A stretch of DNA of 45,917 nucleotides from Deltaproteobacteria bacterium CG11_big_fil_rev_8_21_14_0_20_49_13 (lineage in GTDB: Bacteria > UBA10199 > GCA-002796325 > 1-14-0-20-49-13). The notes beneath the pieces were generated by a model that had not been told where the DNA came from, made no database searches, and saw only the letters and a program-made list of their open reading frames with translations. Shown piece by piece: positions 14,309-45,917 of the stretch. A program made the translations under genes and the position numbers. The first letter of the stretch is position 1, and each line of letters opens with the position of its first letter. The stretch covers positions 1 to 45,917 of the forward strand of contig PCWZ01000050.1 of the NCBI GenBank assembly GCA_002796305.1, in the 5' to 3' direction.

Positions 14309-14377
14309 CCAGTTAGCAGGTTTCCAGGTTTCCAGGTTTCCAGGTTTTAAACCTGTTAACCTGGAAACCTGTTAACC
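14309..14377 (-). repeat. Tandem-unit quasi-palindrome, rpsM-rpsK gap
   Basis: The plus strand shows four copies of the octamer CCAGGTTT-like unit, then complementary copies around ACCTGGAA. The inner stem AAACCTGG/CCAGGTTT is perfect, and two-base mismatches recur each unit. It fills the gap and leaves only a few bases for the S11 ribosome binding site. Confidence 0.8.
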
Positions 14378-14776: not shown

Positions 14777-14844
14777 TCGTGACTCGTGACTCGTGACTCG
14801 TGAATTGTAAAAAACAAGTCACGGGTTACAAGCTACAAGTTACG
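14777..14844 (-). repeat. Heptamer-armed hairpin, rpmJ-rpsM gap
   Basis: Three to four copies of the heptamer CGTGACT (plus strand) face diverged copies such as CAAGTCACGGGTTACAAGCTAC. By hand pairing the transcript gives a stem of about 30 bp with mismatches at pairs 14, 21 and 28. It ends three bases before the rpmJ stop. Confidence 0.8.
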
Positions 14845-14965: not shown

Positions 14966-15024
14966 GTTATGAGTTATGGGTTATGCGTTATGAGCATCTA
15001 CTCTCATCACTCACCACCTATCAC
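14966..15024 (-). repeat. Heptamer-armed hairpin, infA-rpmJ gap
   Basis: Plus strand copies of GTTATGA/GTTATGG/GTTATGC face CTCATCA/CTCACCA/CCTATCA. Hand pairing gives about 22 bp with G-A mismatches at pairs 6, 13 and 20. The outer end overlaps the infA stop codon. Confidence 0.8.
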
Positions 15025-16625: not shown

Positions 16626-17930
16626 CTAACCGCGCCTCCCCTTAAATCTACCGCCCGTCTTATTACCAAGGAATCCTTCATAATGACGGCTTAAGAGATG
16701 CGCTTCTATCTGTGCCACCGTATCCATTGCAACGCCTACAACGATCAAAAGCGATGTACCGCCAAAGGTAGATGCCAAGGAGACCGGAATGCCGAATTTA
16801 GATATCAATATGCTCGGCAGGAGACAGACAAAAGTGATATATAATGCTCCGCCAAGCGTGATACGCGTTAAAATGCTATCGATATAATCCGAGGTGCTCT
16901 TCCCAGGCCTGATGCCCGGAATATAACCGCCGAACTTACGCATATTATCAGCGACATCCACCGGATTGAACGTGACCGCAGTGTAGAAATAGCAGAAGAA
17001 TATGATAAGGCCCGCATAGAGGAAGTCGTGAACCCAGCCCTGACTAAGCATCGCCGCCACCGCCTGCATCTTATCTACCTTAACGAACTGAGCTATAGTT
17101 GCCGGGAACAATATTAAACTAGATGCAAAGATGGGAGGAATAACGCCCGCCATGTTAAGCTTGAGCGGCAAATGTGATTCCTGACCGCCATACATCTTTC
17201 TTCCGACTATCCTCTTGGCGTACTGAACCGGTATCCTTCTGTGTGCGCGTTCAAAGTAGATTATAAGAGCGACTATCCCGAATATGAAGGCCAAAAGAAT
17301 GAGGAAGCCGAAAAGACCGCCGAACTGGTCTTTTGTGTTCCATGCATCGCGGAAACCCGATGGAATACGCGTTACGATACCTGCGAAGATGATGAGCGAT
17401 ATTCCGTTACCGATGCCGCGTTCTGATATCTGTTCGCCTAGCCACATTAGGAAGCACGTGCCCGCGGCAAGCGTCACCATTGTCGTGATATAAAAGGCTA
17501 TTCCGCCGACTCCAGTTAAAAGAACGCCCTGCTGTTCAAGACCGTAACTGATGCCGAAGCCCTGAACAAGGCTCAAGAGAACTGTTCCGTATCTCGTATA
17601 CTGGGTTATCTTTCTCCTGCCTGAATCGCCCTCCTTTTGGAGTCTCTCAATGGCCGGAACTGCAACGGCCAAAAGCTGAAAGATAATGGAAGCGCTGATA
17701 TAAGGCATGATGCCAAGCGCAAAAACTGAGAAACGCTCGAGGGCACCTCCCGAAAAGAGATTAAAGATGTCAAAGACCGTTCCTTGAGACATGATCCGTT
17801 TCAACGCGTCTGCGTTGATGCCGGGGGTCGGGACGTAGATCCCGATTCTATATACCGCAAGCATAAATACCGTAAAAATTATTCTTTTTCTTAACTCCGG
17901 TATTTTAGCAATATTACCGACTGACTGCAT
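16626..17930 (-). CDS. secY: Preprotein translocase subunit SecY
   Basis: The 434-aa inner-membrane channel has ten hydrophobic segments in the usual order, starting [20 protein letters not shown]. Plug and loop motifs are visible: [47 protein letters not shown] and the C-terminal [18 protein letters not shown]. It forms the Sec translocon with SecE, also in this window. The N-terminus is short but normal for a lineage with adk-map downstream. Confidence 0.98.
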
Positions 17931-17931
17931 A

Positions 17932-18020
17932 TTAGGTTACCAGGTTAACAGGTTACTAGGTCAACAGGTCTTCAGATTGAACACGATCTCAACCTGCGAA
18001 CCTGACAACCTGCAAACGTG
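17932..18020 (-). repeat. Tandem-unit quasi-palindrome, rplO-secY gap
   Basis: The plus strand carries about five diverged copies of ACAGGTTA-like units and then complementary ACCTGCGA-like units. They form a long interrupted stem with a loop near 17980. It fills the gap. Confidence 0.75.
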
Positions 18021-18458
18021 CTAACTTACTATTTTTCCGCCTGCAGCCTCAATTTTAGCCTTGGCCTGCTTCGAGACCAGCGCACCTTTGATAGTTAAAG
18101 CGTTCCCGACCTTGCCGTCACCCAATATCTTCAGGAAATCGCCTTTCTTGTTGATGACACCCTTTTCAAGAAGCAGTTCCTGGGTGACTTCCGTACCCTT
18201 AGGAAGGGAGTTTAACTTTTCGACGTTGACCACAGTAACAACTCGCTTAAAGATGTTCGTAAAACCCTGTTTCGGAATACGACGTTGCAAAGGCATCTGA
18301 CCGCCTTCGAATCCGCGCTTGTGGTAACCGCCGGAGCGAGATTTCTGCCCCTTGTGACCTCTGGTCGACGTGCCGCCGTGACCGGTTGCATCGCCCCTAC
18401 CAAGCCTTTTTACCCTATGCGTTGCACCAACACCCGGTTGTAATTCATTTAGTTTCAT
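18021..18458 (-). CDS. rplO: 50S ribosomal protein L15
   Basis: The 145-aa protein starts [20 protein letters not shown] and contains the glycine-rich [20 protein letters not shown] segment that threads into 23S rRNA. Its start lies 14 nt inside the end of rpsE, so no room is left for rpmD, which normally stands between these genes. Confidence 0.98.
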
Positions 18459-21756: not shown

Positions 21757-21819
21757 TAAGTGCAGGAGTGTAGAAGTGCAGAAGTTGACTTCTGCACTCA
21801 AACACTCAAACACTTAAAC
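21757..21819 (-). repeat. Tandem-unit quasi-palindrome, rpsQ-rplN gap
   Basis: A perfect 10-bp inner stem (AGAAGTGCAG against its complement) is extended by units related to AGTGTAGA/AACACTCA. UU-type mismatches recur about every nine pairs. The outer end overlaps the rpsQ stop. Confidence 0.78.
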
Positions 21820-22110
21820 GCTTTTTTCTACCGCCGTATCGTCTATTCCCTTCTCTACATAATCTCCCTTTGCAAGGACGCTTGAAAGCTTCCAGCACTT
21901 GGTCTTGCTAATGGGCCTTGTTTCGATGATCCTTACCTTATCGCCCAGCTGGCATATGTTCTTGTCATCGTGAACATGAAATTTCTTGCGCTTGCGGATA
22001 TACTTCTTGTAGGTCGGATGTATAACAAGGCGCTCGACCTCAACAATCACCGATTTATCCCCGCTCCTGCGAATGACAACCCCTGTTTTGTTCTTAATTT
22101 GCCTTTGCAT
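21814..22110 (-). CDS. rpsQ: 30S ribosomal protein S17
   Basis: The 98-aa OB-fold protein starts [20 protein letters not shown]. It contains [20 protein letters not shown] and the [19 protein letters not shown] segment. Length and place (after rpmC) are normal. Confidence 0.98.
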
Positions 22111-24129: not shown

Positions 24130-24198
24130 CAGTTATCAGTTATCAGTTATCAGTTATCAGTTTTTTGCCGACTACTGATGACCGATTACCGATTACTG
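24130..24198 (-). repeat. Heptamer-armed 31-bp hairpin, rplB-rpsS gap (clearest example)
   Basis: The plus-strand arm 24130-24160 is CAGTTAT repeated more than four times, followed by a 7-nt loop and the second arm at 24168-24198. Paired by hand in the transcript, 27 of 31 positions pair (four as G-U). The only mismatches fall at pairs 6, 13, 20 and 27, one per heptamer. Confidence 0.9.
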
Positions 24199-24201
24199 CT
24201 T

Positions 24202-25020
24202 TTATTTTCTTCTATCCTTAATAATGAACTTCTGAGTTCGTTTGTTTGTACGGGTCTTATAACCCTTTGCCGGCACACCGGTCGGACTTGACGGATGGTT
24301 ACCGCCTTTCGAGCGACCTTCGCCGCCTCCGTGCGGATGATCAACAGGGTTCATTGCCATACCTCTGACATGAGGTTTCTTTCCTAAGTGACGATTTCTT
24401 CCTGCTTTTCCGATAGAGATATTCTCATGATCAAGATTTCCAATCTGGCCGATGGTCGCCTTGCAATTGATGCTTACAAGCCTGACTTCTCCCGATGGCA
24501 TTCTGATCTGGGCATATTCACCCTCTTTGGCCATGATCTGCGCCTCACCGCCCGCTGAACGGACAAGCTTTCCGCCTCCGCCGACCTTGAGCTCAATGTT
24601 ATGAATGGACGTTCCAAGCGGAATGTTCCTTAAGGGAACTGCGTTTCCGGGCTGAACGTCTGCGTTCTCGGCGGCAATTATTTTGTCGCCTACTTTGAGA
24701 CCAAGAGGCGCGAGAATATATGCCCTTTCACCGTCAATGTACTGGATAAGTGCTATTCTTGCAGTACGGTTGGGATCGTATTCCAACGCGATGACCTTGC
24801 CGGGAACGTTCAGCTTGTTGCGTTTGAAGTCGATTATCCTGTAGTTCCTAGGTGCACCGCCGCCTCTGTGGTCGGTGGTGATAAGGCCCACGTTGTTCCT
24901 TCCGCCTGTGCGTCTAAGTGACGCCAAGAGTCCTTTTTCGGGCCTCTTCTTCGTCAGGTCAGAAAAGTCGTGGCCTGTTTGGAACCTTCTTCCTGGTGAT
25001 GTTGCGTTATAAGTCTTCAT
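24202..25020 (-). CDS. rplB: 50S ribosomal protein L2
   Basis: The 272-aa protein contains the SH3-like fold and, near the C-terminus, [18 protein letters not shown] with the conserved histidine needed near the peptidyl-transferase centre. It overlaps rplW by four bases (ATGA). Confidence 0.98.
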
Positions 25021-25310: not shown

Positions 25311-25319
25311 AAAATAAGT

Positions 25320-25353
25320 TTTTAAGTGCTTAAGCGTTTAAGTGTTTATAAGA
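25320..25353 (-). repeat. Short heptamer tract, rplD-rplW gap
   Basis: Diverged copies of TTAAGTG/TTAAGCG/TTTAAGTG give a weak self-complementary tract around CTTAAG. It looks like a degenerate or single-arm member of the hairpin set. Confidence 0.5.
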
Positions 25354-26636: not shown

Positions 26637-26713
26637 TCAGGTTTATAGGTCTACAGGTCCTTAGGTTCAAAGGATTCAACCTTCCAACCTACTAACTTTC
26701 TAACCTACCAACC
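26637..26713 (-). repeat. Tandem-unit quasi-palindrome, rpsJ-rplC gap
   Basis: About five diverged octamers of the type AGGTTTAT, AGGTCTAC and AGGTCCTT are followed by complementary CCAACCTA/CTAACCTA-like octamers. The inner stem is AGGTT/AACCT. It is more degenerate than the other members. Confidence 0.7.
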
Positions 26714-30982: not shown

Positions 30983-31048
30983 TTAACTGTAGTGAACAGT
31001 TATTAGTTAACAGTTAACAGTGAACTGTTAACTAGTTAACTGTTAACT
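30983..31048 (-). repeat. Heptamer-armed hairpin, rpsL-rpsG gap
   Basis: Units such as AGTTAAC and AGTGAAC are arranged as near-perfect inverted copies. The inner stem of about 11 bp is centred near 31017 and is followed by interrupted pairing to both ends. It reaches the rpsL stop codon. Confidence 0.78.
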
Positions 31049-31418
31049 ATTTGGGCCTTTTGGCTCCGTATTTAGAGCGGCTCTGTTTTCTTTTTTCTAC
31101 TCCCATTGTATCCAACGTTCCTCTTACAATATGATATCTCACACCCGGAAGATCCTTCACACGGCCGCCTCTTACAAGAACAACTGAATGCTCCTGCAGA
31201 TTGTGACCTTCACCGGGGATATATCCTGTCACTTCAAGTCCATTGGTGAGTCTGATACGCGCAACTTTTCTCAAAGCCGAGTTAGGCTTTTTAGGCGTTG
31301 TTGTATAAACCCTTACGCAAACTCCGCGCTTCTGCGGGCATGTTTGAAGTGCCGGCGCGGCGTTGCGCCATCTGACCTTCGTCCTTCCAGAACTCACTAA
31401 CTGATTTATCGTTGGCAT
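31047..31418 (-). CDS. rpsL: 30S ribosomal protein S12
   Basis: The 123-aa decoding-centre protein starts [20 protein letters not shown]. The streptomycin-linked sites have wild-type residues ([10 protein letters not shown] and [13 protein letters not shown]). It is the first gene after a promoter and a tandem repeat leader. Confidence 0.98.
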
Positions 31419-31419
31419 A

Positions 31420-31518
31420 TTAACTGCAGTTAATAGTTACTAGTAAACTGTTCACTGTTCACTGTTCACTGTTCACTGTTCACTGTTCACTGTTCACTGT
31501 TCACTGTTCACTGTTCAC
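31420..31518 (-). repeat. Ten-copy heptamer tandem repeat in the rpsL leader
   Basis: CTGTTCA is repeated ten times without error (31448-31517). Next to it lies a short diverged complementary region (31420-31447, with GCAGTTAATAGTTACTAG) that could pair with the first copies. It lies between the promoter and rpsL, so it would be part of the 5' leader. Copy number is probably unstable. Confidence 0.9.
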
Positions 31519-35718: not shown

Positions 35719-35792
35719 GTTAGTTATGAGTTATGAGTTATGAGTTATGAGCATCAAAGCCCATTACCCATTACCCATCACTCATCACTCAT
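35719..35792 (-). repeat. Heptamer-armed hairpin, rpoB-rpoC gap
   Basis: Four copies of GTTATGA on the plus strand face CCCATTA/CTCATCA copies. By hand pairing the transcript forms a stem of about 32 bp with an 8-nt loop, G-U pairs, and A-A or G-A mismatches at pairs 6, 13, 20 and 27. The outer arm overlaps the rpoB stop codon. Confidence 0.88.
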
Positions 35793-39960: not shown

Positions 39961-40018
39961 GGTCAGGCGCCGGACGTCAGGGGTCTGAATTCTGACCTCT
40001 GACATCCGACATCTGCCA
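39961..40018 (-). repeat. Tandem-unit quasi-palindrome, rplL-rpoB gap
   Basis: GGTCAGGCGCCGGACGTCAG on one arm faces GACATCCGACATCTGCC on the other, with a short loop near 39990. About 20 of 24 pairs form, several as G-U. The units are CGGACGTCAG-like and less regular than heptamers. Confidence 0.75.
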
Positions 40019-45713: not shown

Positions 45714-45917
45714 TTGGGTTTCATTACATGATAGTTAGACAGCGAGGCAAGGCAATTTTTTGTACAACGTTCACGGCAAAATGTATTCGTGTTTTGGAAA
45801 ACCGTCAAAAAACGCCCATCCCCGGTATAAATTTACCAATTTGATAAAGTCTGGTGATCGGTTATCGGTGGTCAGTTATCGGAAACATCTTTTAAATTCT
45901 TTATGATTTCGTATAGT
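45714..45917. other. Non-coding right edge with a single-arm heptamer tract
   Basis: No gene is supported here. A possible rlmB promoter on the minus strand is TTGCCT, 16 nt, TATCAT. A GGTATAAATTTACC near-palindrome lies at 45830-45843. From 45857 to 45880 there are units of the ATCGGTT/ATCGGTG/GTCAGTT type, related to the heptamer repeats in region 3 but without an opposing arm inside the window. Confidence 0.4.

Follow-up and report, generated by a model that had tools for sequence, protein, structure and literature searches.

The element at 24130–24198, in the gap between rplB and rpsS, is an intercistronic hairpin built of two facing arrays of 7-bp units, probably inserted in this lineage and belonging to array families that would grow by slippage and disperse throughout the genome. 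The window, that is, the whole stretch of DNA analysed, is 45,917 nucleotides long, and the hairpin and its neighbours occupy it as follows.

24130–24162, minus strand: start-proximal arm, a tandem heptad array, (CAGTTAT)4.7 on the plus strand, with 100% unit match
24168–24198, minus strand: stop-proximal arm, diverged tandem heptads, approximately (CCGATTA)4 on the plus strand
24202–25020, minus strand: rplB (ribosomal protein L2), the upstream gene, Pfam PF03947/PF00181
23779–24120, minus strand: rpsS (ribosomal protein S19), the downstream gene, Pfam PF00203

What is the structural basis of this hairpin? The transcribed strand reads the start-proximal arm as (TAACTGA)n, and the stop-proximal arm, listed by tandem-repeat analysis as CCGATTA in 4.1 copies at 24168–24196, is complementary to it except at one position per unit. 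Positions 24130–24160 pair with 24168–24198 over 31 positions. Counted inwards from the outer end, pairing fails outright at 5, 12, 19 and 26, equivalent to 6, 13, 20 and 27 from the loop; the failures named in the original prediction are confirmed, its numbers being those from the loop end. The pair count likewise bears out its four wobble positions: 9, 16, 27 and 30 are A-C on the plus strand and G-U in the transcribed minus strand. On that strand the segment 24118–24205 folds at −30.9 kcal/mol (z = −8.8). The rplB stop codon lies 3 nt from the hairpin and the rpsS ATG lies 9 nt past it. Six registers of the real window contain a 31-bp stem with no more than four failures and a loop no longer than 20 nt, and none was found in 20 trinucleotide-Markov shuffles of the window; a chance origin of the stem is excluded. 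Among known RNA families, Rfam 15 at gathering score matches only six tRNAs in the window.

The hairpin is not alone in the window, in which the following array elements were also found.

35719–35792, minus strand: heptad hairpin, rpoB-rpoC gap, AGTTATG/CCCATTA
14777–14844, minus strand: heptad hairpin before rpsM, TCGTGAC/GTTACAA
14966–15024, minus strand: weaker heptad hairpin after infA, GTTATGA array
14312–14377, minus strand: octad (8-bp unit) hairpin, rpsM-rpsK gap, fold z = −8.1
17929–18032, minus strand: octad hairpin, rplO-secY gap, AGGTTAAC units
21757–21823, minus strand: octad hairpin upstream of rplN
30991–31049, minus strand: heptad hairpin, rpsL-rpsG gap, AGTTAAC
31427–31518, minus strand: array of 10 heptads (ACTGTTC), faced by a short, diverged stretch, rpoC-rpsL gap
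39964–40015, minus strand: heptad hairpin upstream of rpoB, TCTGACA
25315–25348, minus strand: single octad array, rplD-rplW gap
26677–26713, minus strand: single octad array, rpsJ-rplC gap

Close to the window end, at 45853–45882, there is also a diverged heptad array (GGTGATC/AGTTATC). The hairpin 35719–35792 pairs over 33 bp and, counted from its outer end, fails at 7, 14, 21 and 28, equivalent to 6, 13, 20 and 27 from the loop; it thus has mismatches at the same four loop-end positions, as had been noted, plus an additional failure at position 3, and G-U pairs at three further positions. For 14966–15024 the previously described series survives only in its outer part. The failures there do recur every 7 bp (3, 10, 17); of the seven innermost pairs, however, five fail too, and the transcribed strand folds far less well (z = −1.3).

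The mismatch spacing follows from the arrays themselves. Within each arm one version of the unit is repeated, and the versions of the two arms differ at one base, so that a failure returns every 7 bp. Across 1.25 Mb of this genome 40 hairpins have period 7, and in them mismatch pairs sharing a phase within an element number 183, compared with 91.7 ± 7.1 under the null, a clustering about 13 standard deviations above expectation. Unit columns in which the two arm consensuses differ account for 144 of the 249 mismatches, and the other 105 are private to single units. The original prediction took fixed phase in unrelated sequences as the strongest hint that the element obeys a rule. Between elements, however, the dominant phase varies (chi-square test, p = 0.12 with phases counted from the outer end and 0.14 from the loop), and phase 6 from the loop is dominant in 5.7 of approximately 39 elements, or about one in seven. 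Random phase in a larger set from the same genome, named beforehand as the outcome that would speak against the idea, is what the 40 hairpins display, and a mismatch phase common to all elements is rejected. The covariance model suggested as a check has no basis here, since no homologous copies share a sequence; counts of pairs and phases address that question directly. There is a rule, as supposed, but it consists of tandem 7-mers facing inverted tandem 7-mers and not of a fixed phase. This removes a false lead, since a constant mismatch phase within a hairpin implies no structural code.

How widespread is the design in this genome? The analysis read contig stretches no longer than 20 kb, approximately 64% of the genome in all, and genes were called by a simple script based on codon usage. 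Period-7 arrays scoring at least 11 number 68 in 0.92 Mb, compared with one in a trinucleotide-Markov shuffle, and 23 of 63 heptad arrays have a facing partner scoring at least 12, compared with 0.1% when the flanks are shuffled. Hairpins with facing arrays, chosen by a stem score that favours in-register pairing, number 50 in 1.25 Mb (40 of period 7, six of period 8 and four of period 9); 35 occupy co-directional gaps, six divergent gaps and none convergent gaps. The usual order is stop codon, a few nucleotides, 5′ arm, short loop, 3′ arm, 3–14 nt and ATG, with about 10 nt between the end of the element and the start codon, and once the element is removed the gap left has a median of 13 nt. 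A Shine-Dalgarno (SD) motif precedes the gene directly after a hairpin in two of 24 cases, as against 438 of 1,054 (42%) other genes (p = 6e-4), counts that are approximate near starts taken from a simple codon model. Hairpin density in the ribosomal and RNA-polymerase window is 196 per Mb versus 34 per Mb, a comparison to be read with the fact that the window was picked after elements had been noticed and thus not blind.

The units fall into families, which are GAAGCAG-like (13), CGTAACT-like (eight), GAAGTCA-like (six) and AGTGAAC/AGTTATC-like (six). The nearest-neighbour distance between units is 0.50, compared with 1.63 for random heptamers. Because the units cluster in few families, the elements of this genome were not each invented separately from random words. 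Longer steps occur as well. Nonad (GCCAGCAAG) arrays, partly facing, at L153:12689-12743, L154:15618-15686, L139:7859-7919 and L136:1398-1445 are a 9-bp version of the design. Octad arrays of a single family (AGTGCGTA and its complement) lie at L011:6466-6500, L151:2970-3004, L160:6202-6235 and L167:13010-13039, inside called reading frames and with no facing partner; they may be coding, or the genes may be mis-called.

Comparison with relatives suggests that the rplB-rpsS hairpin is a lineage-specific insertion. In the two nearest relatives, the Deltaproteobacteria-labelled MAGs L055 and L056, rplB and rpsS overlap by one base, and in most other relatives read the gap is −1 to 2 nt. These relatives belong to the same family at best, and deletion at individual gaps in them is possible. 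The rpsL-rpsG gap contains heptad hairpins in five of 30 class members, the same test finding no element in the other 25, and the five carriers have five different units (AGTTAAC, CGAGTCA, GTCGTTC, GTGAATC and GGTTCTT). Presence at this gap varies even within one genus: G007 has the element, G019 lacks it, and their flanks align at approximately 78–82%. Facing heptad arrays also occur in ribosomal-protein operon gaps of contigs labelled Acidobacteria (L062, L074), Chloroflexota/Chloroflexi (L077, L083), Omnitrophica (L100) and Verrucomicrobia (L134). The array hairpin is thus a widespread but patchy kind of element, gained repeatedly at the same site with unrelated units. At the rpoC-rpsL gap, where our genome has its 10-copy heptad array (GTGAACA), the family-level relative G002 has an octad array, AGGAACAC (L213:4161-4214).

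We propose that the arrays expand and are homogenised most likely through 7-nt replication slippage, and that the second arm would arise as an inverted copy of the first by template switch or snap-back. Unit order is mirrored between the arms (14.1 versus 12.7 for unit-permuted arms, p = 1.6e-4), a modest effect, in elements whose selection by stem score favours in-register pairing, that fits an inverted copy that diverged later. The unit families indicate that hairpins then reach other gaps, perhaps by some copying route, for which no mobiliser was found. Once transcribed, the hairpin would fold away approximately 70 nt, so that about 13 unpaired nucleotides separate stop from start, close to what tightly spaced genes ordinarily have. 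Such insertions could persist in operons because the folded hairpin keeps the next start close, and the array hairpins may accordingly be tolerated, or even used, as intercistronic spacers.

An unlikely but more serious competitor to this slippage-and-copying model is that the hairpins are regulatory RNA in operon mRNA, controlling start-codon access, RNase processing or translation coupling, with their pairing under selection. The transcribed strands fold strongly (z = −8.8, −6.7, −5.6 and −8.1), the elements sit between stop and start codons, SD motifs are depleted after them, and they are enriched in the ribosomal and RNA-polymerase region, albeit in a window not picked blind. If pairing in the transcript were selected, then G-U should exceed A-C on the sense strand. 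The original prediction had seen wobble pairs favouring the transcribed strand in two elements, and in 14777–14844 it had pointed to A-C mismatches on that strand, which are indeed present. Across the 35 co-directional elements the sense strand carries 58 G-U and 57 A-C pairs (95% interval of the G-U share, 0.41–0.60), 29 elements of other genomes carry 34 and 43, and the pooled counts are 92 and 100 (p = 0.61). A G-U preference is thus rejected, and the favourable early examples are chance in a small sample. Likewise, the opposite strand folds comparably in several cases, presence varies between species of one genus, and the units at the same gap are unrelated between genomes. The transcript still folds and a role for the hairpin is possible, yet the sequence record has no sign of selection for it. 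An orientation of the purine-rich arm relative to the transcript, at first significant (p = 0.0005), was dropped because the 5′ arm of a hairpin is identical whichever strand is read; the signal is a polarity of the inverted repeat, whose 5′ arm is G-rich in most elements of this genome, and this polarity fails in the Acidobacteria loci.

Dispersal might be imagined as the work of REP-type mobile hairpins moved by a Y1 (RAYT/IS200-like) transposase, given eight Y1_Tnp matches in the genome and unit families that recur genome-wide. We regard this as quite improbable. No heptad hairpin, and only two single arrays, lie within 900 nt of the five Y1_Tnp genes checked; the Y1-rich class members G026 (10 genes) and G014 (six) have no hairpins in the stretches read, and G024, with two Y1 genes, has many. 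Neither proximity nor correlation therefore links the hairpins to this transposase. The unit families have no sequence core in common, the REP/RAYT arrangement of a common palindrome with copies flanking a Y1 transposase gene was not found, and a comparison of body and core between unit families, as bears on MITEs, showed neither to be shared.

Could the arrays instead be binding sites for a protein that reads DNA or RNA at 7-bp steps, the inverted copy being a second site? The same architecture has been read in this way in Geobacter and Beggiatoaceae (PMC2700814, PMC4679880). In Geobacter metallireducens, classes 1–3 are paired tandem octad and heptad sites read as IHF/HU sites (PMC2700814), and here too tandem 7- and 8-mers form pairs close to genes, with one member on each strand and the distance varying; however, the units differ, and the Geobacter sites are not described as filling stop-to-start gaps. 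With at least four period-7 families, as well as 8- and 9-bp families, in one genome, a single protein would have to recognise very different words, and we consider this reading very unlikely.

The Beggiatoaceae arrays resemble ours even in their letters. TAACTGA arrays in that family lie just before start codons and in ribosomal-protein operons, with few Shine-Dalgarno motifs (MacGregor 2015, PMC4679880), and the start-proximal arm of our hairpin (24130–24162, minus strand) is exactly (TAACTGA)n, 9 nt from the ATG. Beggiatoaceae have 169 direct sets and a single inverted one (PMC4679880), whereas inverted pairs are common here. Moreover, a search of this genome and 45 other class members found (TAACTGA)3 at one place in this genome only, and not at many sites as in Beggiatoaceae. 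Horizontal spread of the word is rejected because it is unique to this genome among the class members searched, and from sequence comparison the common word looks incidental.

Two further candidates concern the junction itself. A split ribosome-binding site, in which a hairpin within the SD-start spacing joins the two halves, has a precedent in T4 genes 25 and 38 (PMC3014915), and the geometry fits. Removal of the element yields an SD motif in six of 24 cases, compared with 5% at control gene ends; nevertheless, random re-pairing of 5′ and 3′ flanks yields 4.96 of 24 (p = 0.35), so that the restored motifs are mostly chance junctions. The flank permutation accounts for them, and we reject this highly improbable explanation. 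An intrinsic terminator is likewise rejected, since none of the 50 hairpins lies in a convergent gap and there is no U run, only a mixed A/T linker of approximately 10 nt before the ATG.

Bacterial heptamer repeats were noted long ago but have been little studied. In Xanthomonas, GGGAATC heptamers form intergenic arrays of mostly about four units, 70–75 times per genome two such arrays face each other at close range, and most lie within 50 nt after a stop codon (coding strand) or before a start codon (non-coding strand) (Rehm et al. 2015, PMC4692102). Our hairpin likewise has two facing arrays of about four heptamers. However, Xanthomonas has a single G-rich, quadruplex-forming unit at sites largely common to two species (PMC4692102), whereas here there are several families, mostly without GGG tracts, with periods of 7, 8 and 9, and the elements are not conserved at the same gap; the GGGNATC quadruplex unit was not found among units such as CAGTTAT, GAAGCAG and CGTAACT. 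In the Nostoc tRNA-Leu intron, the P6b stem is formed by two strands of complementary 7-nt repeats, in which units are gained and lost (PMC4476775); our stems likewise pair complementary 7-nt repeats, but the Nostoc stem sits in a group I intron and not between genes. Finally, heptamers are the commonest long unit among the long simple sequence repeats of Mrazek and colleagues, for which slippage was proposed; as related by the works citing them (PMC4679880, PMC4692102), those are tandem direct repeats, unlike ours. None of the Xanthomonas, Beggiatoaceae, Geobacter and Nostoc works settles the origin of array hairpins, and the kind of element has thus already been seen in other bacteria and left unexplained. 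New here are the variety of unit lengths and families within a single genome, the absence from relatives at the same junction, the repeated gain at one gap, the lack of wobble bias and the occurrence in further phyla.

Unrelated facing units in one genome, together with repeated gain, make the 7-bp step separable from any particular sequence, and the pattern speaks for a process of copying or replication more than for one binding protein. Gene pairs of essential operons offer a test of gain, loss and effect on translation. More tentatively, and with some doubt on our part, one might imagine a process that crosses phyla and builds hairpins of 55–95 nt from tandem 7- to 9-mers precisely between co-transcribed stop and start codons, including those of ribosomal-protein operons, with genome-specific units; these would be an unrecognised dispersing class with its own copying mechanism.

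Other dispersed repeats were observed in the same genome. Three copies of a perfect 28–32 bp palindrome with the common arm GGGGTCAGGCTTGACTTCTTGACTTTAG (L011:15340-15402, L011:16779-16835 and L017:14882-14949) form a separate repeat with no relation to the heptads. Palindromes of the GTCATCCCCGCGCAAGCGGGGATC type, which are REP-like, lie at L008:8572-8637 and L007:2824-2907, and the REP-like core AAGCGGGGATC has seven matches in 1.25 Mb.
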